Positions 16,658-59,570 of a stretch of 64,000 nucleotides of DNA are shown one piece after another. This stretch comes from Beijerinckiaceae bacterium (GTDB taxonomy: Bacteria > Pseudomonadota > Alphaproteobacteria > Rhizobiales > Beijerinckiaceae), in contig JAPZUD010000008.1 of assembly GCA_027533425.1 (NCBI GenBank), forward strand, positions 1 through 64,000, in the 5' to 3' direction. Below the pieces are notes generated by a model that saw only the letters and a program-made list of their open reading frames with translations, searched no databases and had not been told where the DNA came from. The position numbers were made by a program, and so were the translations under genes. Positions within the stretch are counted from its first letter, which is position 1; each line of letters opens with the position of its first letter.

Positions 16658-18148
16658 ATGCAGGCTGTTTCCGCCTTCCTCATCCCCTTCCTCGATATCC
16701 AGCTGCTCGGGCTTGTCGCAGCGGGCACGTTCGCCGGCATCTATATCGGCGCGATTCCCGGCCTCTCCGTCACGATGGCGGTGTCGATCCTGATTTCCTT
16801 CACCTTCGCCTGGCCGGTCTACCCGGCCCTCGCACTGATGATCGGCATCTTCATGGGCGGGGTCTATGGCGGCTCACGCACGGCGATCCTGCTGAACATT
16901 CCCGGTGCACCGGCGGCCATCGCCACGGGGCTCGACGGCTACCCCATGGCCAAGAAGGGCGAAGCGGGCGAGGCGATCGGCATCACCACGGTCATGTCGT
17001 TCTTCGGAGGTGCGGTCGGCATCATCGTGCTGGCCGTCGCCGCGCCGATGGTCTCCGAATTCGCGCTGAAGTTCCAGCCGCGCGACTACATGCTACTCGC
17101 CGTTCTCGGCATCCTGCTGGTCGGCTCGCTCTCGGGCGAGAGCCTGATCAAGGGTATCTTCGCCGGCGCCTTCGGCATTCTCATCGGCACGGTGGGGCTC
17201 GACCCGCTGACCATCGCCGACCGGTTCACCTTCGGGTTCAGCGAATTGCGCGGCGGCATCTCCTTCGTCGCGGTCATGATCGGGATGTTCGGCATTTCCG
17301 AGGCTTTGGTGCAACTGCACGACGTGAACAAGGCAGCGGTGCGCCAGCAGATCAACCGCATCGTGCCGTCCTGGAGCACGATCACGAAATACCTGCCGCT
17401 CTCGCTGCGCTGCTCCGGGATCGGCGTGATCATCGGCGCCCTGCCCGGCACCGGCGGCGATATCGCCGCGCTCATGGCCTATGACCATGCCAAGCGCACG
17501 ACCAAGAACCCCGAAGTCCCGTTCGGCGAGGGCGCGCGCGAGGGGCTCGTCGCGCCGGAAACCGCCAACAACGCAGCGGTCGGCGGCGCCTTCATCCCCA
17601 TGATGACCCTGGGCATCCCGGGCGATGCTGTCACCGCGATCATGATCGGCGCGCTCTTCATCCACGGGCTCAACCCGGGACCGATGTTGATGATCGACAA
17701 GCCGGACATGTTCTGGTTCATCGTCGGCGCGCTGACCCTCGCCAATGTCTTCATGCTGATCTTCGGCCTGACCGGCATCCGCTTCTTCGTGAAGGTGGTG
17801 GAGACGCCCCGGAGCGTGCTCATCCCGGTCATCATCCTGCTTTCGATCGTCGGCGCCTATGCCGTGAAATCCTCGCTTGTCGACGTCTACTGGATGCTCG
17901 GCTTCGGCGTGCTCGGCTATTTCATGAAGCTCTATGGCTTCCAGCTCGGCCCGGTCATCCTCGGGGTGATCCTGTCGCGCCTGCTCGACGATAACTGGCG
18001 ACGCGCCATCATCTCCGATCAGGAAAGCCTACCGATGTTGCTCAAGGGCATCGTCACAAGCCCGCTCTCGCTCGTGCTGTTCTCCGCCGTCCTGTTCATT
18101 CTGCTCGCGCCGCTCTGGCGCAAGGTGACGGCGCGCCGGGCGGCCTGA
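16658..18148 (+). CDS. Tripartite tricarboxylate transporter large permease TctA
   Basis: A 496-residue membrane protein with about eleven hydrophobic segments. GGVYGGSRTAILLNIPGAPA near residue 75 and ALPGTGGDIAALMAYDHAK near 270 are the two conserved TctA signatures, and AAVGGAFIPMMTLGIPGDAV is a third. The start at 16658 leaves one base between it and the tctB stop. TctA uses an ion gradient, not ATP, to import the acid delivered by TctC. Confidence 0.93.
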   Translation: MQAVSAFLIPFLDIQLLGLVAAGTFAGIYIGAIPGLSVTMAVSILISFTFAWPVYPALALMIGIFMGGVYGGSRTAILLNIPGAPAAIATGLDGYPMAKKGEAGEAIGITTVMSFFGGAVGIIVLAVAAPMVSEFALKFQPRDYMLLAVLGILLVGSLSGESLIKGIFAGAFGILIGTVGLDPLTIADRFTFGFSELRGGISFVAVMIGMFGISEALVQLHDVNKAAVRQQINRIVPSWSTITKYLPLSLRCSGIGVIIGALPGTGGDIAALMAYDHAKRTTKNPEVPFGEGAREGLVAPETANNAAVGGAFIPMMTLGIPGDAVTAIMIGALFIHGLNPGPMLMIDKPDMFWFIVGALTLANVFMLIFGLTGIRFFVKVVETPRSVLIPVIILLSIVGAYAVKSSLVDVYWMLGFGVLGYFMKLYGFQLGPVILGVILSRLLDDNWRRAIISDQESLPMLLKGIVTSPLSLVLFSAVLFILLAPLWRKVTARRAA

Positions 18149-18197
18149 GGGGCGCAACGCTTCGCGAACGGCGTTCAATCATGGAGCCGAAAACAGG

Positions 18198-25079: not shown

Positions 25080-25571
25080 TCGCCGCCTCCCCTTGTTTCT
25101 CTTCCCTGGAACCGGCCTGCGCCGGCGCGAGAACGGGCGCGCCCCCGAAGACGCACCTGCCCGGCACTATGAATAACCTGTTAAAACGCCTCCGGCTGCC
25201 CCTACCTAGGTCTAACATCACAGAAAAATCGCAGGCCCTCGCAATGAAGCGCCGGCCGCATCCGCGGATTGTGCAGTGCAGCGAAAATGATCATACCTTT
25301 GAGCTTCAGGCTATACATCGAGAAGGCGTTCTAAGCTTGCCGAGCAGAGCGCCAATAGTGACAAGCAAGCCAACTATTGTGCAGCGCAAAATAAACTGGG
25401 CCGGATATGCGACAGCGTGCCGCAGACAGCGCCCGCGCGCCGCGCACCGATCACGAGAGTTTGTCCCTCCTAATCATCATAACATTGATAGACGCGCGCC
25501 GAATCCGCAGCCATTGTGATGCAGCACATCCTGTGCGGACGCCGGGGTCTGGGGGCCAAGGTCTGGGGGCG
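25080..25571. promoter_or_regulatory. 492-bp divergent intergenic region
   Basis: This lies between the symporter unit (minus) and the FadJ-like gene (plus). It is less GC-rich than its surroundings. I see no credible gene; the ORFs here are shadows or extensions. A clear dyad, CAATAGT (25353-25359) and ACTATTG (25373-25379), with a 13-base spacer, is a candidate operator. Both promoters are expected here. Confidence 0.45.
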
Positions 25572-27677
25572 ATGGGCGGACAGGTGCACCGAACCAACAT
25601 CGACCGGGTTGCGATCCTGGAGATCGACAACCCGCCGGTGAATGCGATGTCCCAGCCGATCCGCAGGGCATTGGCTGATCATGTCGCGCGGGCGGATTCC
25701 GAGCCCGAGATCGGTGCCATGGTGATCCTGGCCCGCGGCCGCACCTTCGTGACCGGGATCGACCTCACCGAACTCGGCCAGAAGCCGCGTGACCCCGGCA
25801 TGGCCGAGGTGGTGGACCGGATCGAGGCCGCGTCAAAGCCCGTCGTGGTCGCGTGGCACGGCACGGCCCTCGGGGCCGGCTGCGAGATCGGGCTGGCCGC
25901 GCATCGGCGCATCATGGGGCGGCAGAGCCGGGTCGGCCTGCCCGATATCCGCCTTGGCCTCGTGCCCGGCGCCGGCGGTACGCAACGCCTGCCCCGGCTG
26001 ATCGGACTGCCCGCCGCTCTGGACCTTATCGCCTCGGGCCGGGTGATCGATGCGATGGAGGCTTTCGCCCTCGGCCTCTGTGACGAGGTGACCGACGGCG
26101 ATATCCGCGAGGCCGCGCTGGCGGCGGCGCGGACCCTGATCGGCCGGATGCAGCCCCGCCTGTCCCTGCGCGCGCCCGCACCGCCGGAACCCGGCGCCTG
26201 GGAAGCCATGGTCGAGCGTGTGCGCCGCGAGGCCCGGCATCGCATTGCGCCGCTGCGCGCGATCGAACTGATCGGCCAGACGCTGACAACGCCCTATGCT
26301 ATCGGCAGTGCCGCCGAAAGGCGGGCCTTCCTCGAACTGACCGCCTCTGACCAGTCCCGCGCGTTGCGCCATCTTTTCTTTGCCGAACGGGCCCTGCGCA
26401 AACGGCCGGAATTCGCGGAGATCCGGCCCCGCGCTCTCGCGCGGATCGGCCTTGTCGGCTCGGGCTCGGCCGCTGCCGGCATCGCCGCGACCCTCGCGGA
26501 GCGTGGCCTTGCCGTCACCCTGGTCGAGACCGCCGAAGGCGGGCTGCAGGCGGCGCGGGAGCGGGTCGCGGCACTGATCGCCCGGGGCATCCGGTCCGGC
26601 CGTGTTCCGGAGGCCGCCCGGCAGGACATTGCCTCCCGCCTGTCCTTCCAGGGCGATCTCGCCGCCCTTGCCGGCTGCGACCTCGTGGTCGAGGCGATAT
26701 TTGATGATCTCGCGCTCAAGCGTGACCTGTTCGAGCGGCTCGAGGAGATCCTGCCGCCACAGACCCTGCTGGCGAGCGCCTCGCCAATGACGGATCATTC
26801 TGCCCTTGCCGGGCAACTCGCCCATCCCGGGCGCTACCTCGCCATGCATTTCCTCGCCCCGGCTCCGGCGATGCGGATCGTCGAGCTGGGCCGCACGCGG
26901 CATACGCGGCCGGAAACCCTCGCCGCGATCTTCGGCATGCTCGATCGCATCGAAAGGATGGCCATCCCCTGCCTTGCCACGGAGGGACTTGTCGGGAGCC
27001 GGATCGTGGCGCGGTTCCGGGCGCAATGCGATTTCATGCTGGAAGAAGGCGCCCTCCCCGCCGAGATCGACCGCGCCCTGGAAGCCTTCGGCCTGCCCAT
27101 CGGCCCCTTCGCCGCGCAGGATCTGGCGGGCCTCGACATTGCCTGGGCGCGGCGGAAGCGGCTGGCCGAAACCCGCCCGCAGGGCGAGCGTGACGTGCCC
27201 ATTCTCGACCAGCTCTGCGAGCGGGGGCATTTCGGCCAGAAAGTCGGCAAGGGGTGGTATCGATACCGCAACGGCCAGCGCGAGCCCGACCCGGACGTCG
27301 AGGCGCTGATCCGCGCCCATGCCGCATCGACAGGCCGGCGGCGGCAGGCCTTCACGGCGGATGCGATCCAGCTGCGGGTCCTGGCGGCCATGGTCAATGA
27401 AGGGTGCCGGATGATCGAGGCCGGCATCGTCGCCCGACCGGCGGAGATCGACCTGCTGATGGTGCATGGCCATGGCTTCCCGGCCTGGCGCGGCGGACCG
27501 ATGCAGGAAGCCGATTCGCGCGGCCTCCGCGTGATCCAGTCCGCCATCGAGGCCAGCGCGCAGCGCGATGGCGCGGGGTTCGAGGCCTGCCGCCTCGTGG
27601 CAGAACTCATCGCCTCCGGCCGATCCTTCGGCGCGCTCAATCGCCCCGTCGTGGCGGAAGTGCTTCAGCCGGCCTGA
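25572..27677 (+). CDS. Bifunctional enoyl-CoA hydratase / 3-hydroxyacyl-CoA dehydrogenase
   Basis: A 701-residue FadJ/FadB-like beta-oxidation protein. Residues 1-190 are the crotonase domain (GTALGAGCEIGLAAHRRI, then VPGAGGTQRLPRLIGLP). From ~290 comes the NAD-binding domain (RIGLVGSGSAAAGIAATLAE) with the catalytic His in LAMHFLAPAPAMRIVELG, and then the C-terminal dehydrogenase domains. In the crotonase part, the segment that usually reads PEV or PEI reads PDI, so a catalytic Glu may be Asp. No thiolase partner lies adjacent. The start at MGGQVHRTN follows GGGGGCG; the ORF track adds 55 codons of upstream sequence. Confidence 0.9.
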   Translation: MGGQVHRTNIDRVAILEIDNPPVNAMSQPIRRALADHVARADSEPEIGAMVILARGRTFVTGIDLTELGQKPRDPGMAEVVDRIEAASKPVVVAWHGTALGAGCEIGLAAHRRIMGRQSRVGLPDIRLGLVPGAGGTQRLPRLIGLPAALDLIASGRVIDAMEAFALGLCDEVTDGDIREAALAAARTLIGRMQPRLSLRAPAPPEPGAWEAMVERVRREARHRIAPLRAIELIGQTLTTPYAIGSAAERRAFLELTASDQSRALRHLFFAERALRKRPEFAEIRPRALARIGLVGSGSAAAGIAATLAERGLAVTLVETAEGGLQAARERVAALIARGIRSGRVPEAARQDIASRLSFQGDLAALAGCDLVVEAIFDDLALKRDLFERLEEILPPQTLLASASPMTDHSALAGQLAHPGRYLAMHFLAPAPAMRIVELGRTRHTRPETLAAIFGMLDRIERMAIPCLATEGLVGSRIVARFRAQCDFMLEEGALPAEIDRALEAFGLPIGPFAAQDLAGLDIAWARRKRLAETRPQGERDVPILDQLCERGHFGQKVGKGWYRYRNGQREPDPDVEALIRAHAASTGRRRQAFTADAIQLRVLAAMVNEGCRMIEAGIVARPAEIDLLMVHGHGFPAWRGGPMQEADSRGLRVIQSAIEASAQRDGAGFEACRLVAELIASGRSFGALNRPVVAEVLQPA

Positions 27678-33362: not shown

Positions 33363-34466
33363 TTACGCGTCCTTCCAGACCTCGGCGGCCAGCTCGACGA
33401 TCATCTCGAGCTTCTTCCACTGCTCGTCCTCGGCCAGCGTATTGCCTTCCTCGGTCGAGGCGAAACCGCATTGCGGCGAGAGGCAGAGCTGGTCGAGCGA
33501 GACAAATTTCGACGCCTCGTCGATGCGGCGGCGAATGTCGTCCTTGGCTTCCAGCACGCCGGTCTTCGAGGTGACGAGGCCGAGCACCACATGCTTGCCC
33601 TTGGGCAGGAACCGCAGCGGCTCGAACCCGCCGGCGCGGTCCGTATCCCATTCCATGAAATAGCCATCGACCGGCATCGCGTTGAACAGCACTTCGGCCA
33701 CCGGCTCGTAGCCGCCGGAGGCGATGAAGGTCGAGCGGAAATTGCCGCGGCAGAGATGCATGGTGATGGTCAGGTCGGCTGGCTTGTTTTCCAACGCCTT
33801 GCGCACCATGCCGGCATAGATGTCCGGCTGCTTTTCCGGATCGTCGCCGCGCTGGCGCAGCATCTCGCGCTGGTTGGGATCGCAGAGATAGGCGAAGGAG
33901 ATATCGTCGAGCTGCAGGTAACGGCAGCCGGCGGCGTAGAACGCCCCCACCGCCTTGCCATAAGCGGCGCCGACATCGGCATAGAACGCATCCATCTCGT
34001 CATAGATGCCGGGATTCATCATCTTCCGGCCGCCGCGATAATGCAGCATGGACGGGCCCGGAATGGTCATTTTCGGCGTGGCGCGGGTATTCGCCTTCAG
34101 GAACGTGAAATGCTCGATCATCGGATGGCCGGAAAACCCGACCTTGCCGGTGATGCGCAGCGCCTTGGCAATGCCCACCCCGCCCTTGAAATTCATGCCG
34201 GAATCCGCCTCCACCGAGGTGACGCCGTCGAGCTGCTCGAGGAAATCGAAATGCCAGTAGGCGCGGCGGAACTCGCCATCCGTCACGCCCTTGAGGCCGA
34301 CCGCTTCCTGTTTTGCGATGAGCGCCTTGATCTCGCGATCCTCGATCGCCTTCAGGCCCTCGGCGCTCAGCGTGCCGGCCGCACGCTCCTCGCGGGCCTT
34401 CTTCAGCGCGGCCGGGCGCAGCAGGGAGCCGACCTGGTCGGCGCGGAAAGGCGGTCTGGCAGTCAT
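33363..34466 (-). CDS. Cobalamin-independent methionine synthase-like methyltransferase (MetE C-terminal family)
   Basis: A 367-residue protein resembling the catalytic half of MetE (YxjG/YxjH type). FRADQVGSLLRP opens the barrel, HLCRGN and SPQCGFAS supply the zinc ligands His, Cys and Cys, and YLQLDDISFAYLCDP is a conserved active-site strand. Such short forms transfer methyl groups to homocysteine or related thiols. It lies beside the demethylase genes and the Liv operon, so a link to methyl groups or to aromatic acids is possible but unproven. Confidence 0.85.
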   Translation of the reverse strand: MTARPPFRADQVGSLLRPAALKKAREERAAGTLSAEGLKAIEDREIKALIAKQEAVGLKGVTDGEFRRAYWHFDFLEQLDGVTSVEADSGMNFKGGVGIAKALRITGKVGFSGHPMIEHFTFLKANTRATPKMTIPGPSMLHYRGGRKMMNPGIYDEMDAFYADVGAAYGKAVGAFYAAGCRYLQLDDISFAYLCDPNQREMLRQRGDDPEKQPDIYAGMVRKALENKPADLTITMHLCRGNFRSTFIASGGYEPVAEVLFNAMPVDGYFMEWDTDRAGGFEPLRFLPKGKHVVLGLVTSKTGVLEAKDDIRRRIDEASKFVSLDQLCLSPQCGFASTEEGNTLAEDEQWKKLEMIVELAAEVWKDA

Positions 34467-49963: not shown

Positions 49964-49982
49964 GTGGTGGGGGAAGCAGGAC
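49964..49982. repeat. Left attachment-site repeat
   Basis: GTGGTGGGGGAAGCAGGAC matches bases 59485-59503 exactly, including the CCA end and acceptor strand of tRNA-Tyr. This copy is a fragment without the rest of a tRNA, as expected for the distal attachment site. Confidence 0.85.
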
Positions 49983-50045: not shown

Positions 50046-50068
50046 GGGGTACGCAAATGGGGTACGCA
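50046..50068. repeat. Paired GGGGTACGCA sites, left end
   Basis: GGGGTACGCA occurs at 50046 and 50059, followed by a partial third copy GGGGAC. The same arrangement with the same spacing and orientation is at 59401 and 59414. They lie just before the integrase start and are likely integrase arm-type binding sites. Confidence 0.7.
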
Positions 50069-50089
50069 ACGGGGACTCGGAGGTGATTC

Positions 50090-51433
50090 ATGCCCCGCAA
50101 AGCCCAGTTCCTCGAACTCCATCGCGGGCAATATCGCGTTGTCGTCTCAGTGCCGCGCGACCTCCATTCGCAGCTCGGCACCAAGCTTAAGCGGTCTCTT
50201 GGAACCGATAGCCTCACCACCGCTGACGCCTTGAAATGGTCCGTCGTTACCGAGCTGAAGCGCCAGATTGAGGAGGCCCGGAGAGGCGGCAACGCCGATC
50301 CTCTTCGCAAAGAGGCCACGCAATACCGCGAGGCTCTCACCAAAGCCCGCACCGAGAACGAGATCGACGCGCTGCGATATGCCCTCGCGATCCGGGCTGA
50401 ACAGATTGCCGGTAAGCCGGTTGAGGTTGAAGCGGTTGGGAATGAGGAGCATCCGGTATTCGATCCGCAACGAGCCCAGCAAGCCAAGCAGTTCGCAGAT
50501 ATGGCACAGGGCCTCGCGACGCCGCTTGATGCCTATCTAAGCGCCTTCCATGCTGAGAACCTTCGTTCGGCTGGCGTCAAGGCAGATGATCTCCGCGCCT
50601 TGGAGATGCTAGCAGAATGGTGCCGCAAGGCTGCCATCCCCCCCTTTGTCGAGGCCATAGAGCCGCGTACGGCGGGGCGCTTTGTCAGCGAGGCCCTGTT
50701 CCCCGGCAAGGCGCGAAAGACCGTGAACAAGTATGTCTCCTCGCTCTCGGCCTATTGGCGTTGGATGATCAAGAAGGGCTACCTTGAGGCCAACCCGTGG
50801 CGCGAGAAGTCGCTACCCAAGGCCCGGCAGGCGGAAGACGAGGCCGAACGCGCCTTCACCGATGAGGAAGTCCTGAAGCTCCTCAATGGCAAGCCTACGG
50901 GCTATCTCGGCCCGCTCATGAAAATCGCCGCGCTCACCGGGGCGAGGATCGACGCGATTGCCAGCCTCAAGGTACGGGATATGCGAGATGGCATGTTCCG
51001 CTTCAAGCCCCAGAAGCGCGAGACTGGCCACCGGCTCGTGCCGATCCATTCCACCCTCAGGGCAACCATCGAGGAACTCACGAAGGACAAGGGCGATGAG
51101 GATGACCTCTTCCCCGAGCTTCCGCCCCCACCCGCCGGCTCAGAGCGGCATCGCTCCAACCCCGCTGTGCAGCGATTTGGAACCTATCGGAAGAGCCTGG
51201 GGATTGATGACCGGGTGGCCGGCAAGCGCAGCTCGCGGGTAACCTTCCACTCCTTCCGCCGCTGGTTCATCACCAAGGCCGAGCAAGCCGGCATCGCCCC
51301 GCATATCATCGCCAGCGTTGTGGGCCACAAGCGGCAGGGCATGACCCTCGGGCTCTATTCAGGGGGACCATCGCGGGAGCAGCTCACAGAATGCGTCGAG
51401 GCGGTGAAGTTGCCGGAGGGCGTGAAGCTCTAG
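50090..51433 (+). CDS. Tyrosine-type site-specific integrase
   Basis: A 447-residue phage-type integrase. The N-terminal part (FLELHRGQYRVVVSVPRDLH) is the arm-binding-like domain often seen in alphaproteobacterial phage integrases. The catalytic domain shows the Arg in ALTGARIDAIASLKV, HSFRRWFITKA (His and Arg), VVGHKRQGMTLGLY with the His and the nucleophile Tyr. A strong site, GGAGG, lies six bases before the ATG. It recombines the 19-bp sequence at tRNA-Tyr. GC content is like the chromosome. Confidence 0.94.
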   Translation: MPRKAQFLELHRGQYRVVVSVPRDLHSQLGTKLKRSLGTDSLTTADALKWSVVTELKRQIEEARRGGNADPLRKEATQYREALTKARTENEIDALRYALAIRAEQIAGKPVEVEAVGNEEHPVFDPQRAQQAKQFADMAQGLATPLDAYLSAFHAENLRSAGVKADDLRALEMLAEWCRKAAIPPFVEAIEPRTAGRFVSEALFPGKARKTVNKYVSSLSAYWRWMIKKGYLEANPWREKSLPKARQAEDEAERAFTDEEVLKLLNGKPTGYLGPLMKIAALTGARIDAIASLKVRDMRDGMFRFKPQKRETGHRLVPIHSTLRATIEELTKDKGDEDDLFPELPPPPAGSERHRSNPAVQRFGTYRKSLGIDDRVAGKRSSRVTFHSFRRWFITKAEQAGIAPHIIASVVGHKRQGMTLGLYSGGPSREQLTECVEAVKLPEGVKL

Positions 51434-51665: not shown

Positions 51666-52544
51666 CTAGGAAAATGCGGTTTTTTGATTGTCCAAATGTG
51701 AAAAAAGATTTGGCAACATTCCTGATCTGGCCCCCTTTATTGTTTCGCTAATAGCAAGCCTCATAAATATTTCATAATCAGGTGCTTTTACTTTTATAAT
51801 TTTTAGCGCTGCCTTGAACGCATGAAATAGGGCTCGACTTATTAATTTACCAAAGCATACTTCTGTCACTTCTTGTGGCTTTACAGCGACCACCCTTTTG
51901 GGCCCACGTTTATACCCGATAGTCAATAGCCGCTGTGCAAGCATCGCATGATTAGGCTTTGGAGGATCATTCATATCGATAACAGATAAGGGCCTCTGGC
52001 GATCGAACAAAGCAAGCTTTCCACGAGCACAGCAACTGATATCGATCTCAGTCCACCTTTGAAGCCAACTCGCCAACAATGAAGTCCGTTGACGAAAATC
52101 GTTAAAGGCGGCAGTCCCGGAAGCTCCGTTCCCAGCCAACGACTGGAAGAGGTTCTCCAAAACTGGAAAACTCATCACATCGTTCTCCCAGCTGTACCCC
52201 ATAGTATAAACCACTCTCGGTCCACCGTATTGCTTACCCAATACACGATCATAATCAGAGTCCATACATATCGAAATACTCTTAATATTGTTATTTTTAA
52301 CGTCTTCTGCGATGAGTTTAAGCGTATTTTTGTTTCCAACTGACTTAACGTGATAAATTTTATTGTTATAAAATGCATTTATAACAGACTCCCAATACAA
52401 TGAATCAAGTGTACCATCATTTTGTGTCATCGAAATTGCCTGTTGATAGCCTAAAGATGTTCCTCCCTCGCAAAAAACGACAACATCTGCCTTGTAGAAA
52501 ATATTCAAGCTGTGAAGGGAACTAGTTGATCGCCGCAAATTCAT
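51666..52544 (-). CDS. DUF4435/TOPRIM-like protein, AriB-like subunit of a PARIS-type defence system
   Basis: A 292-residue protein, AT-rich compared with its neighbours. VVFCEGG places a Glu at residue 26, and MDSDYDR places acidic residues at 95, 97 and 99: the Glu plus DxD pattern of a TOPRIM nuclease fold. GYSWENDVM follows, as in DUF4435. In PARIS, the AriB effector is held by the ATPase AriA and released when a phage anti-restriction protein is sensed, after which it shuts the cell down, for example by cutting a tRNA. Its start overlaps the ATPase stop in an ATGA junction. The assignment is by recognition, not search. Confidence 0.78.
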   Translation of the reverse strand: MNLRRSTSSLHSLNIFYKADVVVFCEGGTSLGYQQAISMTQNDGTLDSLYWESVINAFYNNKIYHVKSVGNKNTLKLIAEDVKNNNIKSISICMDSDYDRVLGKQYGGPRVVYTMGYSWENDVMSFPVLENLFQSLAGNGASGTAAFNDFRQRTSLLASWLQRWTEIDISCCARGKLALFDRQRPLSVIDMNDPPKPNHAMLAQRLLTIGYKRGPKRVVAVKPQEVTEVCFGKLISRALFHAFKAALKIIKVKAPDYEIFMRLAISETIKGARSGMLPNLFSHLDNQKTAFS

Positions 52545-53827
52545 TTTACGAGCGACTCCATATCGATTGCCTTATCTGAGAGCAATCCAACGATATCAGG
52601 AGAATGGGTTGCTGCAATGATTTGTGCATTCGGATTGAGCGCACGAAGACTGCCAACAAGGCGCTCTTGCCACAGAACGTGCAAAGATAGCTCAGGTTCA
52701 TCTGCAATAAATATCGCAGGCATCTCGCGCTGCAACAAAGCCTCGCTCATCAGAATTAAAAGCTGTTTTTCTCCGCTCGAAAGCATTTGCGGCGTAAGCG
52801 CTTTTCCGCTTCGTGAAACGAAAATCATTTCATTGCTCTCAGAGAAAGTCATTTTCTTTCTTTGAAAAAGACTATCTGCGATTTCTTGAAAACGATCTTT
52901 TTGACTGAATATAATTTTAATCTTTTTCTGGAGCTCTTCCCAACGATTTACAACATCTTCGATTCTATAGAGTCCCATTCGAAAAATAAGGGACTCATAG
53001 GTAAAGCCACCCCCTGACGAATTCTTTGATTCTTGAATGTATTTTTTTGCCCGATCAGAAAAATCTGACAAAAGTGTCTTTGTATCCCTCTTCACGTTCA
53101 GCTCATCAAATATTTTTGTAAGCTCTTCAGCATACTGAGGGACAAGACTCATCCTATCATCGTCAAATATGTCAATATGATCTGAACTGTCGATAAGAGA
53201 TACGAAAAGATTTTCCTGAAAAGCTCTTATTTCATCGTCTTTTTGCCGAGAAAGCGTAGCAAAATATCTGACTAATTCATTTGATAAAGACTCTAGCTTA
53301 TATTCGACCGAAGATTCGTACGCCCTGTCGTCGCGCATTCTATCACTAGGATGCGCTCGTTGAACAGAAAGCCATTTTACAGATACTAGATCATTTAATA
53401 CTGGTAATAATCCGGTTTGAAATCGCCGGTAGTAGTCTAAAATTCGAGGATCATGACGACTTCGTCTTATCATCATCTGTTCCTCGCTATCTTCTAGCGA
53501 AAACTTCATTTCCTTTGGGTTTCGGCCACCCATGCTGATACGATAGTCGATTAAATCGAATGGCCGATCTTTCATGCTCTTCTTTGTGACAATAATTGTT
53601 GGCTTTTCGCCTTTCTTATTCGAGTTTAGATTTATCGTGGCACGACGAAAGGGCATCCGATCAAGCGTCTTAAAGTCAGCAGTTAAGGCAGCGGCCAATA
53701 GATTTATGAATGTTGTTTTTCCTGTGCCATTTTGTCCAATGAAAAAATTCACATTCTGATCTAATTCTACATTGAAATCGTAGCTATCCCAGAATCCTTC
53801 GATCGATACATTTGAAATTAGATGCAT
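52541..53827 (-). CDS. SMC/ABC-like ATPase, AriA-like subunit of a PARIS-type defence system
   Basis: A 428-residue AAA_15/AAA_21-type ATPase. FIGQNGTGKTTFINLLAAAL is Walker A, MLSSGEKQLLILMSEAL the signature, AIFIADEPELSLHVLW Walker B, and AATHSPDIVGLL the switch His. The middle (residues ~150-330) is long and helical, as in the coiled insert of such proteins. With the following DUF4435 gene it forms the two-gene layout of PARIS. OLD-like or Septu-like ATPases are less likely because the partner is DUF4435, not HNH. The region is AT-rich, a sign of separate origin. Confidence 0.8.
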   Translation of the reverse strand: MHLISNVSIEGFWDSYDFNVELDQNVNFFIGQNGTGKTTFINLLAAALTADFKTLDRMPFRRATINLNSNKKGEKPTIIVTKKSMKDRPFDLIDYRISMGGRNPKEMKFSLEDSEEQMMIRRSRHDPRILDYYRRFQTGLLPVLNDLVSVKWLSVQRAHPSDRMRDDRAYESSVEYKLESLSNELVRYFATLSRQKDDEIRAFQENLFVSLIDSSDHIDIFDDDRMSLVPQYAEELTKIFDELNVKRDTKTLLSDFSDRAKKYIQESKNSSGGGFTYESLIFRMGLYRIEDVVNRWEELQKKIKIIFSQKDRFQEIADSLFQRKKMTFSESNEMIFVSRSGKALTPQMLSSGEKQLLILMSEALLQREMPAIFIADEPELSLHVLWQERLVGSLRALNPNAQIIAATHSPDIVGLLSDKAIDMESLVK

Positions 53828-54119
53828 GGGTGATTCCGGTGATGGTTATCAAGCTTCAGGAGATTCACAATAAACGCTCCAAGGGGAACATTAAAGTGCT
53901 TACTTTTGGAGAGCGCACCCATTGAGTCGGCCAGCAGAAGCCCAAAGTCTCACTTTGGCAAAAGAACGCTCTTCAAATGTCGTATTCATTTTAGGTATGC
54001 CCCAAGCAGACCGCGCGGGGCCTGCCAAAAGCCGGTCTGAAAATATCACCTTGACCACCCATAGCATATCGAATTAGAAGACCTACCCGTTGCAGACTCG
54101 CTGCTTTGGAGCCCCAGCC
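53828..54119. promoter_or_regulatory. Gap between ATPase and serine recombinase genes
   Basis: This 292-bp gap separates divergent genes and should hold both promoters. CCAAAG (53942-53947) and CTTTGG (53953-53958) form a short inverted repeat. I see no gene. Base composition changes here from AT-rich on the left to GC-rich on the right. Confidence 0.35.
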
Positions 54120-54761
54120 ATGTCGATCATGCTAGCCCGTGCCTACCTCAGAGCCTCCACCGATGAGCAGGATGCTCTGAGAGCCCGCGAGGACCTTGAG
54201 GTCTTCGCCAAGGAGCGGGGCCTTCCCATCGCCGGCTTCTATGTTGAGAACGAGAGCGGGGCCTCCTTGCAGCGCCCCGAGCTATTCCGCCTCCTCTCCG
54301 ATAGCCGCCCCGGTGATGTGCTTCTCGTGGAACAGGTTGACCGGTTATCGCGCCTCAATGCGGCAGACTGGGAGCGGCTCAAGGCGGAGATCACGAAGCG
54401 GCGGCTCCGGGTGGTCGCGCTGGACCTGCCCACCTCCCATATGCTCGCCAAGGCGGATCCCGATGATTTCACCGCCCGGACATTCGACGCGATCAATGCG
54501 ATGCTCCTTGATGTCCTCGCGGCAGTCGCACGGAAAGATTACGAGGACCGGCGGCGGCGGCAGGCCCAAGGCATTGCCCGCGTGAAGGCCCAACAGCCTG
54601 AGAAGTACCGGGGGCGGCCTGAGAAGAAGGAGCTTCACAATAAGGTGCGGCGAGCTTTGGAGGCCGGCCTCTCATGGGCCGGCGTGATGGACCTTACCGA
54701 TGCTTCCCGCGCTACCGTGGCGAAGGTGGCCGCGAGGATGAAGCAGGGCAACTATCCGTGA
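54120..54761 (+). CDS. Serine recombinase (resolvase/invertase family)
   Basis: A 213-residue recombinase. The catalytic Ser is in AYLRASTDEQDALRAREDLE, and VEQVDRLSRLNAADWERLK is the conserved helix-E region. Residues ~175-213 hold a short helix-turn-helix (ALEAGLSWAGVMDLTDASRA) for DNA binding. Such proteins resolve multimers or invert segments; here it could act on the circular form of the element. Start at MSIMLARAYLR, eight bases after TTTGGAG. Confidence 0.9.
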   Translation: MSIMLARAYLRASTDEQDALRAREDLEVFAKERGLPIAGFYVENESGASLQRPELFRLLSDSRPGDVLLVEQVDRLSRLNAADWERLKAEITKRRLRVVALDLPTSHMLAKADPDDFTARTFDAINAMLLDVLAAVARKDYEDRRRRQAQGIARVKAQQPEKYRGRPEKKELHNKVRRALEAGLSWAGVMDLTDASRATVAKVAARMKQGNYP

Positions 54762-54767
54762 CGGATA

Positions 54768-55304
54768 TCACGGGTCCTTAGGGTCCCGGATGTATTGACG
54801 CACATCGTTGCCCGCATTGAGTCGGTTCGCTAGTTGGATGCAGACTGGGAGCTGCCCGCATGCACGGAACGCTGCCCGTTCTGCATCTGCCCGAGATTGA
54901 TCAGGCGGGTTCGCATGTCTCCAGTACCACCCGCCAGCAAAGGCTATGCCCGCAACAATAATCGGCATGAAGGCTCTTGCCTGTAGGCGAAGCCACCGCT
55001 CCCGCTTTCGACCATTGTCACCTTGAAAGCTGACTTGAAGCGCTATCGCGGCTGCAAGCACAATAGCCAGAAAGCCCACAAGCGCTGCGCCATTCGGCCA
55101 ACCCTGCTCACGAGCTAGCGGGCCTCCAACGAAAACAAGGACAAAGAGCAGCCCGAGCAGAATCAGGCCCTGCAAAGCATAGAAGGCCATCAAATCGAAT
55201 AGGTCGCGAAACGCCCTGACGCGCGGATCAAATGCGTTGTTCTCTTTGAGCTCCTCAAGGTCTTCCGCGAATGCTCGCGCCTTCGGTGACTGGAAGGATT
55301 CCAT
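54768..55304 (-). CDS. Hypothetical membrane protein
   Basis: A 178-residue protein with three hydrophobic segments (about residues 40-60, 72-92 and 112-127) and a C-terminal soluble part containing two cysteines, FRACGQLPVCIQLANRL, that could form a disulfide. The N-terminus is charged (EDLEELKENNAFDPRVRAF). I do not recognise it. It converges with the serine recombinase gene with a 6-bp gap. Confidence 0.6.
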   Translation of the reverse strand: MESFQSPKARAFAEDLEELKENNAFDPRVRAFRDLFDLMAFYALQGLILLGLLFVLVFVGGPLAREQGWPNGAALVGFLAIVLAAAIALQVSFQGDNGRKRERWLRLQARAFMPIIVAGIAFAGGWYWRHANPPDQSRADAERAAFRACGQLPVCIQLANRLNAGNDVRQYIRDPKDP

Positions 55305-55773
55305 GCCGCACTCCCTGAGGCGCTACCTGCGAGTGCCCTCGCAAGCCTGCCTCCAAGACCCGCCAAGTCGGGGAGTTGGAAAACCGAACCCAGTCGGTCC
55401 CTGCGGCCTTTAGTTCGGAGAACCTGGACATACGCCACAGGCTCCCCGACCGCATGGTCGAGGATCGGCACCATCCCGGATGGCACCAGTCCGCTGGGTT
55501 CAGGGTTTCCACGCCCCGGAGCGCCGCGTCTGCGCTCTGCGCTCTGCGTTAAAACTAGCGGCTCAAGGCTTCGGTGCCAAGCCCATAGCCCGGTCAGTAG
55601 GGCTTGAGCGGGGGGCTGCGAGGATAGGAACGAATGTGCCTATCTGGCGAGCTTCTCCACTTTTATGACCACCCCCAATCGCCGTATTTTTGACATCTTG
55701 ATGTGCTTTTAATCGGATCGTAGCTGCCGCGATTGTGCGGTTGCAACGCCTACAACCCAATAAAGGAAACCGA
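55305..55773. other. 469-bp stretch without a convincing gene
   Basis: Short minus-strand ORFs cross this region but none shows a family match or a good start. A small tandem repeat TCTGCGC, TCTGCGC, TCTGCGT lies at 55529-55549. The right part (after ~55650) becomes AT-richer and probably holds the promoter for the next gene. Confidence 0.4.
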
Positions 55774-56478
55774 GTGGTAGCATCATATGCCTTCCAACCC
55801 CAAGATACCCGCAAGCACATTATTGACGTTGTACTTCAATACATTTTCGATCCAAACGACAAACAAGCACTAGCGCAAATAATTCAATTCTCGCCGTACG
55901 GAGCGTATGCTCCAATTATTGAACGCATGGCAAACGGAAATCTTCCATCAATTGCATTTATAATGCGCGACAAGCAGGGAATCGAGCGCAGGATTCGTAT
56001 GACGCCCATGCTTTACTGCTTTGTGATTATCGCCGATGCACTCGGGCATACTCTGCATATCAACCGGCGTGCGCGTGAGAGCCACTCCTACCTGCGGCTG
56101 GTGCCAGCACGAACGCCGGGCAACGTGAAATCCGCGCAACTCTCCGAGGGCAAAACGGTGCCCCTGCCTGATGAACGGATGCCCTTCAACTTTGACATGC
56201 AGCGCATTCTCTACGGAGCGGGGCAGCAACAGCGCGTTTACCCCAAGTCTGATGACCGCTTCGATCTCACGTATGAAAATTGGACCATGAAGGGCGGCAG
56301 CGCAAAAACAGATCAAGCGAGTTTGGTCTTGGCCTTGCTGACGCATCCCGCAGGATGGACATCGCCATTTGGCGGGACTCCAGTGGAACAGGAAGCCGCA
56401 TGCAAGGCGGTTCTTTTCGAGACCCTAAAGGCTCTCGAAAGCGAACGCGAAGTCTTTCTCAAGGCCCGCGCCACATGA
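55774..56478 (+). CDS. Hypothetical protein of the integrated element
   Basis: A 234-residue protein that I do not recognise. It is mixed alpha/beta in appearance, with HIIDVVLQYIFDPNDKQAL near the start and a hydrophobic ALVLALLTHPAGW near the end. The GTG at 55774 (VVASYAFQPQDT) is a plausible start because AAAGGAAA lies just before; the ORF track starts 13 codons earlier. Its stop overlaps the next gene in an ATGA junction, so the two are translationally coupled and probably work together. Confidence 0.6.
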   Translation: MVASYAFQPQDTRKHIIDVVLQYIFDPNDKQALAQIIQFSPYGAYAPIIERMANGNLPSIAFIMRDKQGIERRIRMTPMLYCFVIIADALGHTLHINRRARESHSYLRLVPARTPGNVKSAQLSEGKTVPLPDERMPFNFDMQRILYGAGQQQRVYPKSDDRFDLTYENWTMKGGSAKTDQASLVLALLTHPAGWTSPFGGTPVEQEAACKAVLFETLKALESEREVFLKARAT

Positions 56479-57224
56479 TCTACCCGCCCCAATCTCGGGC
56501 CGAACAGCGAGAACTCCGCCGCAAGGCGGGGTTCACCTCTCGCGTTTCGATCCCGAATGAGAATGCTCTCAGGGTCTGTTCGATTCCGGGGTGCGGCAAG
56601 CCGCCTCAAGCACGGGCGGGGCGTGGCCTAAGCCTAACCCATTGCCGCCTGCATATTCAGCGCCGCAATCGCCACGGTAGCTTTTGGAAGGGCACTCTCT
56701 CCGCTGCGGCCCTTAAGCCCTACCGCCATGCCGCCGAGAGCTACCTCAAGGCCAACCTGTCGGACTTCTGGGTCTCCCATGCCCTGCTTGCGATACAGGG
56801 GCTGCTGGAAGGGGCGGGGCCGGTTGAGCGCGTGGTGGACTTGAAGCGCATGAAGCCCGACCGGAAAGCACGGGCCGCGTTCGCCCGAATGCGCCGCGCA
56901 GGCGTGCCGCCGCTGCGCCTTCTGGTGGACCATCTGGCGATCACAGGCGCGGTGCAGGAAGACCCTATCCGCCCCGGAGGCGAACCCGGCTTTTACTTGC
57001 AGACCCAGTTAGGCAAGGCCGCGCTTCGCAAGGCATCCGGCTATCACTCGGTTTACGGCCCGGACAGCCGATACGATGTTTACCCCCGGAGTGCAGGCCA
57101 ATTCCTCCGTATTATCGGGCGTAAGCTAGACAAAGCCTGCGAGCATGTTGCCCATCGTCATCTTGAGGCTGTTCTAGCGCTCAAGGCCAAACGCGTAAGG
57201 GGAGCAAACAATGGCGTTATCTGA
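56475..57224 (+). CDS. Hypothetical protein with an N-terminal zinc-finger-like motif
   Basis: A 249-residue basic protein. Residues 35-60 contain C35-x4-C40 and then H56, C57 and H60 (CSIPGC and THCRLH), a likely zinc-binding site like the small CxxPGC fingers of phage proteins. The rest is helical and basic, which suggests nucleic-acid binding. The start at 56475 overlaps the previous stop. It is followed 27 bp later by the polymerase-like gene, so a replication role is plausible but not shown. Confidence 0.65.
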   Translation: MIYPPQSRAEQRELRRKAGFTSRVSIPNENALRVCSIPGCGKPPQARAGRGLSLTHCRLHIQRRNRHGSFWKGTLSAAALKPYRHAAESYLKANLSDFWVSHALLAIQGLLEGAGPVERVVDLKRMKPDRKARAAFARMRRAGVPPLRLLVDHLAITGAVQEDPIRPGGEPGFYLQTQLGKAALRKASGYHSVYGPDSRYDVYPRSAGQFLRIIGRKLDKACEHVAHRHLEAVLALKAKRVRGANNGVI

Positions 57225-57251: not shown

Positions 57252-58562
57252 ATGCGTGATCTAGTGATGGTGGAGCGGGACGCACAGGTTGAGCGCTCAA
57301 AGCGAATGCTGGACCCTTATCTCACGACGAGCCATGGCGTGATTACGGTGCTGGTTGACAACATCATGTATGACTACCAGCGAAATGCGCCCGCTCGCCA
57401 ACGGAAGATGAAGCAGGCCGATAGGCTCAATCTGGAGGCAATGCTCACGACAGTCCTTGCCAATCTTGCCTTGGCTGTTGCGGAAGGGGTTGATCCGCCG
57501 ACCATCGGAGTCAGCCTTAAAGCTGCCAAGCGCAAGCTGACCCGATATGATCGTTACGGGTTTACAGGTCTCCCTCGCGTGCTCGGCCTTATCGGTGGGT
57601 CGGGCGGACTTCTGAGCCTAGAACGGTCTAGCCGGAAAGGCGTTGCAAGCGCAGTTACGGCCGCTCCCGACTTCAAGGCCACGCTAGCCCGTTTCAAGTT
57701 CAAGCCAGAGCACTTCGAGGTTGCAGAGGGGCGGGAAACCATATGGCTAAGCCGCCTTACCCGCGACTATGTGAGCGGGACCGAACAGCGAGAAATGATC
57801 GACTACAAGGATACCGAGGAGACGAACCGCTTTCGCGGAGAGGTGGTTCGCATCAACGAGGCGCTGCGAAAGGCGGACATTGCGCTTGCCCCCGAGGATG
57901 GCCAGACCGTTATCACCTCGCTCCGCTTCCTTCACCGCAGCTTTAACCTCCAGCCGGATGCAAAGGAGGGCACAGAGAGGTTTGACCTTGGCGGTCGCCT
58001 TTTCGGAGGCTGGTGGATGAATCTCCCAAAGGAGCGCCGTCACCTGATCCGAATTTCCGGAGAACCCGTTGCGGACTTGGATTTTGCCTCGATGTTCCTC
58101 CGGCTAGCCTTCCTTGAGGTCGGGCAGCGGCCACCCGAAAGCGATCTGTACGCCGACATTCCAGGACTTAGGGAAGCCCGATGGCGGGCGGGAGTGAAGA
58201 AGGTGGTCCTTGCCATGCTGTTCCGAACGTCGCCCCTCACGCGCCTCCCAAAAGATGCCAAGGGCCTATTGCCTCCACGCATGTCTGGCGAGCAGGCTCG
58301 TTCCGCGATCCTCAAAGCCTTTCCAGCGCTCGAATCGATCTTTGAGACGGGAGCCGGATTGCGGCTCATGTTCTCGGAGTCGCAAATCCTTATTGCTGCC
58401 TTGCTCGATTTGGTGGACCAGAATGTGCCCGCGCTGCCAATGCACGACGGCTTGATGGTGCCAATCTCGAAGGTGAGCGTGGCCGCTCGCGCGATGCAGG
58501 ACGCGGCCGAGAAAACTGTTGGCTTCCGCCTACCGATCAGTCTGAAAGCGATGTACGCTTGA
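57252..58562 (+). CDS. Family A DNA polymerase-like protein
   Basis: A 436-residue protein in which I can see the palm motifs of Pol I-type polymerases. Motif A is DFASMFLR (277-284), matching the DYSQIELR pattern; motif B is RAGVK (R312, K316), matching RxxxK; motif C is LPMHDG (H398, D399), matching VHDE. Spacing and order are right. There is no 3'-5' exonuclease domain, and residues 1-270 are unfamiliar (YGFTGLPRVLGLIGG). It is much shorter than Pol I. It may replicate or repair the element; similar unnamed proteins occur on other rhizobial-type elements. The start is unsure, since no ribosome binding site is visible. Confidence 0.65.
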   Translation: MRDLVMVERDAQVERSKRMLDPYLTTSHGVITVLVDNIMYDYQRNAPARQRKMKQADRLNLEAMLTTVLANLALAVAEGVDPPTIGVSLKAAKRKLTRYDRYGFTGLPRVLGLIGGSGGLLSLERSSRKGVASAVTAAPDFKATLARFKFKPEHFEVAEGRETIWLSRLTRDYVSGTEQREMIDYKDTEETNRFRGEVVRINEALRKADIALAPEDGQTVITSLRFLHRSFNLQPDAKEGTERFDLGGRLFGGWWMNLPKERRHLIRISGEPVADLDFASMFLRLAFLEVGQRPPESDLYADIPGLREARWRAGVKKVVLAMLFRTSPLTRLPKDAKGLLPPRMSGEQARSAILKAFPALESIFETGAGLRLMFSESQILIAALLDLVDQNVPALPMHDGLMVPISKVSVAARAMQDAAEKTVGFRLPISLKAMYA

Positions 58563-59400: not shown

Positions 59401-59423
59401 GGGGTACGCAGCTGGGGTACGCA
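59401..59423. repeat. Paired GGGGTACGCA sites, right end
   Basis: GGGGTACGCA at 59401 and 59414, then ATGGGGAC, repeats the arrangement at 50046-50068. These are the probable arm sites of the integrase at the other end of the element. Confidence 0.7.
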
Positions 59424-59484
59424 ATGGGGACGCAGAGGCCAAAAACTGGCCTCTAAGTCATTGAAAAATATGGATGAAAAGAAG

Positions 59485-59503
59485 GTGGTGGGGGAAGCAG
59501 GAC
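59485..59503. repeat. Right attachment-site repeat (tRNA-Tyr 3' end)
   Basis: The second copy of GTGGTGGGGGAAGCAGGAC, lying within the acceptor and T-arm end of tRNA-Tyr and including its CCA. Because the tRNA remains complete, integration restored the gene. Confidence 0.85.
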
Positions 59504-59570
59504 TCGAACCTGCGAAGGCTTAGCCAGCGGATTTACAGTCCGCCCCCTTTGCCGCTCGGGACATTCCCCC
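59486..59570 (-). tRNA. tRNA-Tyr (anticodon GTA)
   Basis: Read from 59570, the minus strand gives GGGGGAATGTCCCGAGCGGC, an anticodon loop CTGTAAA with anticodon GTA, a long variable arm (GGCTAAGCC), the T-arm GCAGGTTCGAGTCCTGC and acceptor TTCCCCC, then A and CCA. The long variable arm is typical of bacterial tRNA-Tyr. It is 85 nt long with an encoded CCA. The integrated element lies at its 3' side. Confidence 0.97.

Follow-up and report, generated by a model that had tools for sequence, protein, structure and literature searches.

The window, i.e., the whole 64,000-nucleotide stretch of DNA analysed here, contains a 9,521-bp integrative element that encodes a minimal polymerase of 436 residues with a predicted family-A (Pol I-type) fold. 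This protein is probably, together with the product of an adjacent gene (P249), a primase-polymerase of the TV-Pol/divPolA2 type that replicates the excised element. The class itself is already described, as the minimal family-A polymerases of mobile elements and phages (TV-Pol, divPolA2, and CcPol-MP). The additions made here are the hint of a winged helix at the N-terminus, the pairing with a partner gene, and the link of divPolA2 to defence-carrying integrative elements.

The integrative element and its contents

Direct repeats of 19 bp, starting at 49964 and 59485, bound the element; the second is the 3' end of a tRNA-Tyr gene. This agrees with the 9.5-kb element of the original prediction. 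A genome of the same genus (sister species) has the flanks joined with one att copy (94% identity over 372 bp), so the element ends are exact. The features are as follows (strand in parentheses where there is one).

49964-49982: attL, 19-bp core GTGGTGGGGGAAGCAGGAC, identical to the copy at 59485-59503
50046-50083 and 59401-59438: 38-nt direct repeats (87% identity), immediately within the two element ends
50090-51433 (+): tyrosine integrase, 447 aa (PF00589, E 8e-11; PF20172, E 1e-8)
51666-52544 (-): AriB-like protein of PARIS defence, 292 aa (PADLOC AriB, E 3e-9)
52541-53827 (-): AriA-like ATPase of PARIS defence, 428 aa (PADLOC AriA, E 6e-38; PF13304, E 1e-21)
54090-54761 (+): serine resolvase/invertase, 223 aa (PF00239, E 3e-20); the true start may be downstream
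54768-55304 (-): putative membrane protein, 178 aa; ORF with no family match
55327-55540: conserved structured non-coding element, 92.5% identity to the copy in a Methylocystis MAG (L002)
55735-56478 (+): 247-aa protein; ORF whose stop overlaps the P249 start
56475-57224 (+): conserved partner P249, with a Cx4C...Cx2H...RHGS zinc-finger-like N-terminus and an all-helical domain
57252-58562 (+): minimal family-A polymerase (predicted), 436 aa, with a winged-helix-like N-terminus, palm and fingers; R249, D277, R312/K316, D399
59485-59503: attR, 19-bp core, the 3' end of tRNA-Tyr (59486-59570, minus strand)

The 38-nt repeats, which contain an internal doubling of GGGGTACGCA, are possible integrase arm sites. 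No helicase was found among the ORFs and Pfam matches of the 9,521 bp, and there is no recognisable origin. Both genes of a predicted PARIS system, AriA and AriB, are present; the pair (51666-53827, minus strand) has about 40% GC versus 65% for the genome and is cargo of the element.

Other elements were seen at the same tRNA-Tyr. In a Beijerinckiaceae MAG (L001, 6205-8973), a decayed element has a frameshifted integrase, a P249 fragment and an intact polymerase ORF. At G209:C157:29569-46390, the flanks of the site are about 16.5 kb apart with an extra att-like copy between them at 33602, a layout indicating use of the site by further elements, perhaps arranged in tandem.

The non-coding element at 55327-55540 is more conserved relative to the Methylocystis MAG than is the polymerase gene, and it is located upstream of the polymerase both there and in N. 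galegae. Copies occur in 217 plasmid records from Agrobacterium, Rhizobium, Methylobacterium and other genera; there was no Rfam match, and no gene is listed under the copies in the plasmid records opened. A long stem (GGGGAGTTGGAAA / TTTCCACGCCCC) is common to twelve copies, two of which show compensatory changes. Genes of ParB or toprim type follow some copies; other copies are found between traM and traH. The element is perhaps a single-strand promoter, an origin or an RNA. As a candidate origin partner of the polymerase it was rejected as unspecific (217 plasmid records versus 4 with a polymerase match).

The polymerase and its partner

The polymerase ORF begins with ATG, spans exactly 57252-58562 and encodes the 436 residues expected. 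Motifs follow the family-A order, i.e., GR (R249), motif A (D277 within VADLDFASMFLR), motif B (R312xxxK316, RAGVK) and motif C (H398-D399 within LPMHDG). Motifs A, B and C with both catalytic aspartates had been recognized in the original prediction, which treated the N-terminal 270 residues as unfamiliar. The GR (DX2GR-like) motif at 245-249 had been missed; with it included, the start of the family-A core shifts from residue 270 to about 215. Among 34 aligned homologues, G248, R249, R263, D277, R312, K316, S377 and D399 are invariant, and H398 is kept in 33; conservation of the two aspartates, proposed earlier as a check, is thus complete. Judged at the sequence level, this agreement is far more than a chance likeness of three short strings. 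Motif C is HDS in the phage members. The steric-gate position (Glu in Pol I) is occupied by F in our protein, by H in most phage members and by a bulky residue (F/Y/H) in most of the family, so sugar selectivity is uncertain. The dN/dS ratio is approximately 0.09-0.11 (about 0.09 against the homologue in the Methylocystis MAG, which is 82% identical), indicating purifying selection.

Single-sequence searches with the polymerase against Pfam, NCBIfam, PADLOC and PDB gave empty or spurious results. Pfam DNA_pol_A (PF00476), suggested earlier as a check, matched neither the polymerase nor any of 17 homologues above the gathering cut-off. The protein does match phrog_4756 in PHROG (E 2e-16), a family of unknown function. 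No exonuclease domain was detected in the 436 residues, as had been noted.

An AlphaFold2 model built with 12 homologues had a pLDDT of 81 and a pTM of 0.81, with pLDDT above 90 across most of the catalytic part. All 50 matches listed by Foldseek against PDB were DNA polymerases of family A (Pol I type), with a best E of 8e-5 and a probability of ~1; this bears out the structural part of the original prediction. Against viral models, the best matches (E ~1e-18) were about 430 aa long. Several come from tailed phages, and one, from Rheinheimera phage Barba31A, is named DNA polymerase. The predicted fold has the features of the family-A superfamily, i.e., palm and fingers, the two catalytic Asp, the GR motif and the RxxxK helix.

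In profile comparisons (hhalign), residues 226-433 align with Pol I, with GR, NLP/NIP, motif A, RxxxK and motif C in register. The comparison set comprised 17 Pol I sequences of low diversity, against which the probability was low (6%) and the score, 32.1, only modestly above decoys: the reversed profile scored 17.6, and none of 20 shuffled profiles exceeded 27.0. With phage RNA polymerases, the alignment is confined to the motif C segment (score 38.9, shuffled decoys at most 23.6; P 8e-4). From the matches to both, we conclude that the polymerase is related to both branches, a kinship already stated for TV-Pols (Iyer 2008, PMC2579912).

In the N-terminal domain, residues 55-137 of the model have the secondary-structure order H-E-H-H-E-E. 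When a profile of these residues was compared with PDB, winged-helix proteins came out on top, namely SarA (4 entries), TFE, MarR (3), Fur and SlyA, with a best E-value of only 0.02. We read this consistent pattern as a hint, short of proof, of a winged-helix-like domain of DNA-binding type. Yutin et al. 2024 (PMC11348598) saw no similarity for the N-terminal domain of divPolA2, and the winged helix is suggested here as an addition at the strength of a hint. A long helix (189-207) lies ahead of the core, with no clear helix pair of the kind seen in a two-helix coiled-coil thumb.

Homologues include those of the Methylocystis MAG (82%) and the Beijerinckiaceae MAG (67%). The polymerase was found in 18 of the 199 genomes sampled from the order and in 22 of 289 genomes (20 of 223 genera) of the class; homologues are also found on prophage-like contigs and in large Vibrio and Aeromonas phages. 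The tree has three branches. Large phages make up one and short contigs bearing capsid and portal genes another; the polymerase of the window falls in the third, that of integrative elements. Most loci examined have a serine resolvase of one family near the polymerase, and tyrosine integrases are common. Defence cargo varies by element, with PARIS in the window, type I restriction in some elements and MmeI-like type IIG in others.

Several related loci deserve mention. Five contigs of 10-23 kb (L027, L028, L029, L037 and L038) encode capsid and/or portal proteins along with a short polymerase of this family, and resemble capsid-forming satellites or small prophages. The record note of an Aeromonas phage homologue (L122, 354-1658) names Vibrio phage ICP1 TUST1-2_00505 as a match; ICP1, the host phage of PLE satellites, may therefore carry a divPolA2. 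Two equal-scoring polymerase copies located 9 kb apart (G323:C14:8284-9234 and 17233-18183) are perhaps a recent duplication.

The P249 gene starts at 56475, in an ATGA overlap with the stop of the gene before it. Its profile matches 14 of 199 genomes, 11 of which are among the 18 polymerase carriers (about 1.3 shared genomes would be expected if the two were independent). In all 11, P249 and polymerase genes are adjacent, on the same strand and no more than 0.85 kb apart. The Cx4C...Cx2H...RHGS motif is present in most P249 members, and a diverged partner with the same zinc-finger-like start occupies the same place in a further branch (hhalign P 2e-6). The AF2 model, from three aligned sequences, is all-helical with a pLDDT of 67, one model of five being confident, and had no PDB fold match at E <0.001. 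On these grounds, i.e., an all-helical prediction and no such match, P249 was rejected as a match to the OB-fold protein MP. Also considered was a three-gene operon with the gene at 55735-56478 as a conserved third part; the 247-aa protein has a diverged homologue in the Methylocystis MAG (24% over 180 aa, E 3e-8), and the idea was rejected outside that MAG.

Proposed function and alternatives

In the mechanism that we propose, the integrase would excise the element as a circle, the polymerase and its operon partner P249 would start and extend DNA synthesis on it, and the serine resolvase would resolve multimers. The polymerase would be catalytically competent, with palm and fingers, metal-binding D277/D399, template-contacting R249 and the RxxxK helix, while its winged-helix-like domain would stand in for the exonuclease and the classical thumb. 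The product would be DNA rather than RNA, considering the bulky steric-gate residue and the DNA polymerases that are the nearest folds of the model. Initiation may be primer-independent, by analogy with CcPol-MP and given that the element has no other primase, and replication of the element is a plausible purpose. Tentatively, and with less conviction, we suggest a division of labour in which the winged helix recognises the origin of the element and the zinc-finger/helical P249 supplies de novo priming, giving a two-protein primase-polymerase whose partner is unrelated to that of CcPol-MP. If true, a small element with defence cargo would need neither a helicase of its own nor a DnaG/AEP primase to replicate.

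Some observations speak against replication. The polymerase ORF of the Beijerinckiaceae MAG is intact while the integrase and P249 have decayed, the element of the window has no helicase or recognisable origin, and divPolA2 of tailed phages occurs beside a regular DNA polymerase (PMC11348598). Because there is no element helicase and a regular polymerase coexists in phages, repair or RNA synthesis should be weighed as well. A T7-type single-subunit RNA polymerase or RNA primase, transcribing or priming the element with the winged helix bound to a promoter or origin, would accord with the motif C match to the phage RNA polymerase profile and the HDS motif C of phage members, and Yutin et al. 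(PMC11348598) raised the RNA polymerase option for divPolA2. We consider it unlikely given that every one of the 50 listed PDB fold matches is a DNA polymerase and that no T7-type N-terminal domain is present. In addition, most members have F/Y/H at the steric-gate position, where T7 RNA polymerase has Gly.

We are similarly doubtful of an accessory role in anti-phage defence or DNA repair, e.g., gap filling or a sensor tied to the neighbouring defence genes. Elements with the polymerase do have defence genes (PARIS, or restriction systems of type I or type IIG), and phages keep divPolA2 beside a normal polymerase; however, the defence cargo changes between elements while the polymerase, partner and resolvase stay, and no PADLOC model matches the polymerase or P249. 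Such elements also decay, as in the Beijerinckiaceae MAG, but it is very improbable that the gene is a functionless remnant in this genome, with its intact ORF, dN/dS of about 0.1, intact integrase and partner, and both att sites.

Comparison with known systems

A minimal polymerase on such an element had been called unusual, which was overstated, as TV-Pol, divPolA2 and CcPol-MP were already described. TV-Pols, which have a minimal core and no nuclease, were predicted to be primase-polymerases in 2008, and their neighbourhoods include a gamma-delta resolvase, an integrase, an adjacent stand-alone all-helical protein and restriction-rich islands (Iyer, Abhiman and Aravind 2008, PMC2579912). 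Our polymerase resembles them in R249 (template Arg), D277, D399, D298 (fingers Asp), R312/K316 and the lack of a nuclease domain, and the element in its resolvase, integrase and adjacent predicted all-helical protein, the match to TV-Pol being one by description. It differs in that the thumb of the model has no clear coiled coil and the element has no D5 helicase. A search for TV-Pol members with the polymerase profile found none in Microcystis phage LMM01 or in four plasmids from species listed for TV-Pol. To our knowledge, only the SCCmec branch of the TV-Pol class has been assayed so far.

That branch, CcPol-MP, has been shown to prime de novo (Bebel 2020, PMC7581432; Rice 2023, PMC10061031). 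In both systems, the polymerase and a small partner are encoded in a single operon, on an integrative element that carries defence genes and site-specific recombinases. However, CcPol is close to Pol I, whereas our polymerase is too divergent for Pfam, and MP, an OB-fold SSB, has its gene between those of the polymerase and the helicase, whereas the element here has a predicted zinc-finger/all-helical partner and no helicase and thus falls outside the PolA-SSB arrangement. Since P249, unlike MP, is no OB-fold SSB, the comparison with CcPol-MP goes no further than analogy. With respect to bacterial DNA polymerase I, the palm and fingers fold and the catalytic motifs are shared, but our protein has neither the 5' nuclease nor the 3'-5' exonuclease, has a different N-terminus and is about half the size.

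A further counterpart is divPolA2, found in tailed phages of 80-145 kb beside a regular DNA polymerase; it was not regarded there as the replicative enzyme, and an RNA polymerase option was raised (Yutin et al. 2024, PMC11348598). The polymerase is, by profile match, homologous to divPolA2 (representative AUR84708, E 4e-24; match at MG592441 25493-26305, AUR84708 being 25469-26761). Both have about 430 aa, a predicted active palm, an N-terminal globular domain, no exonuclease and no classical thumb, but the polymerase of the window belongs to a separate integrative-element branch and has the partner P249. These data tie the phage divPolA2 to defence-carrying integrative elements, found in some 8-9% of the genomes sampled in the order and the class, and propose roles for the divPolA2-type N-terminal domain and the adjacent gene. 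With partner, polymerase, known ends and an empty site, the locus is a compact and apparently intact test case for a branch without an OB-fold partner.
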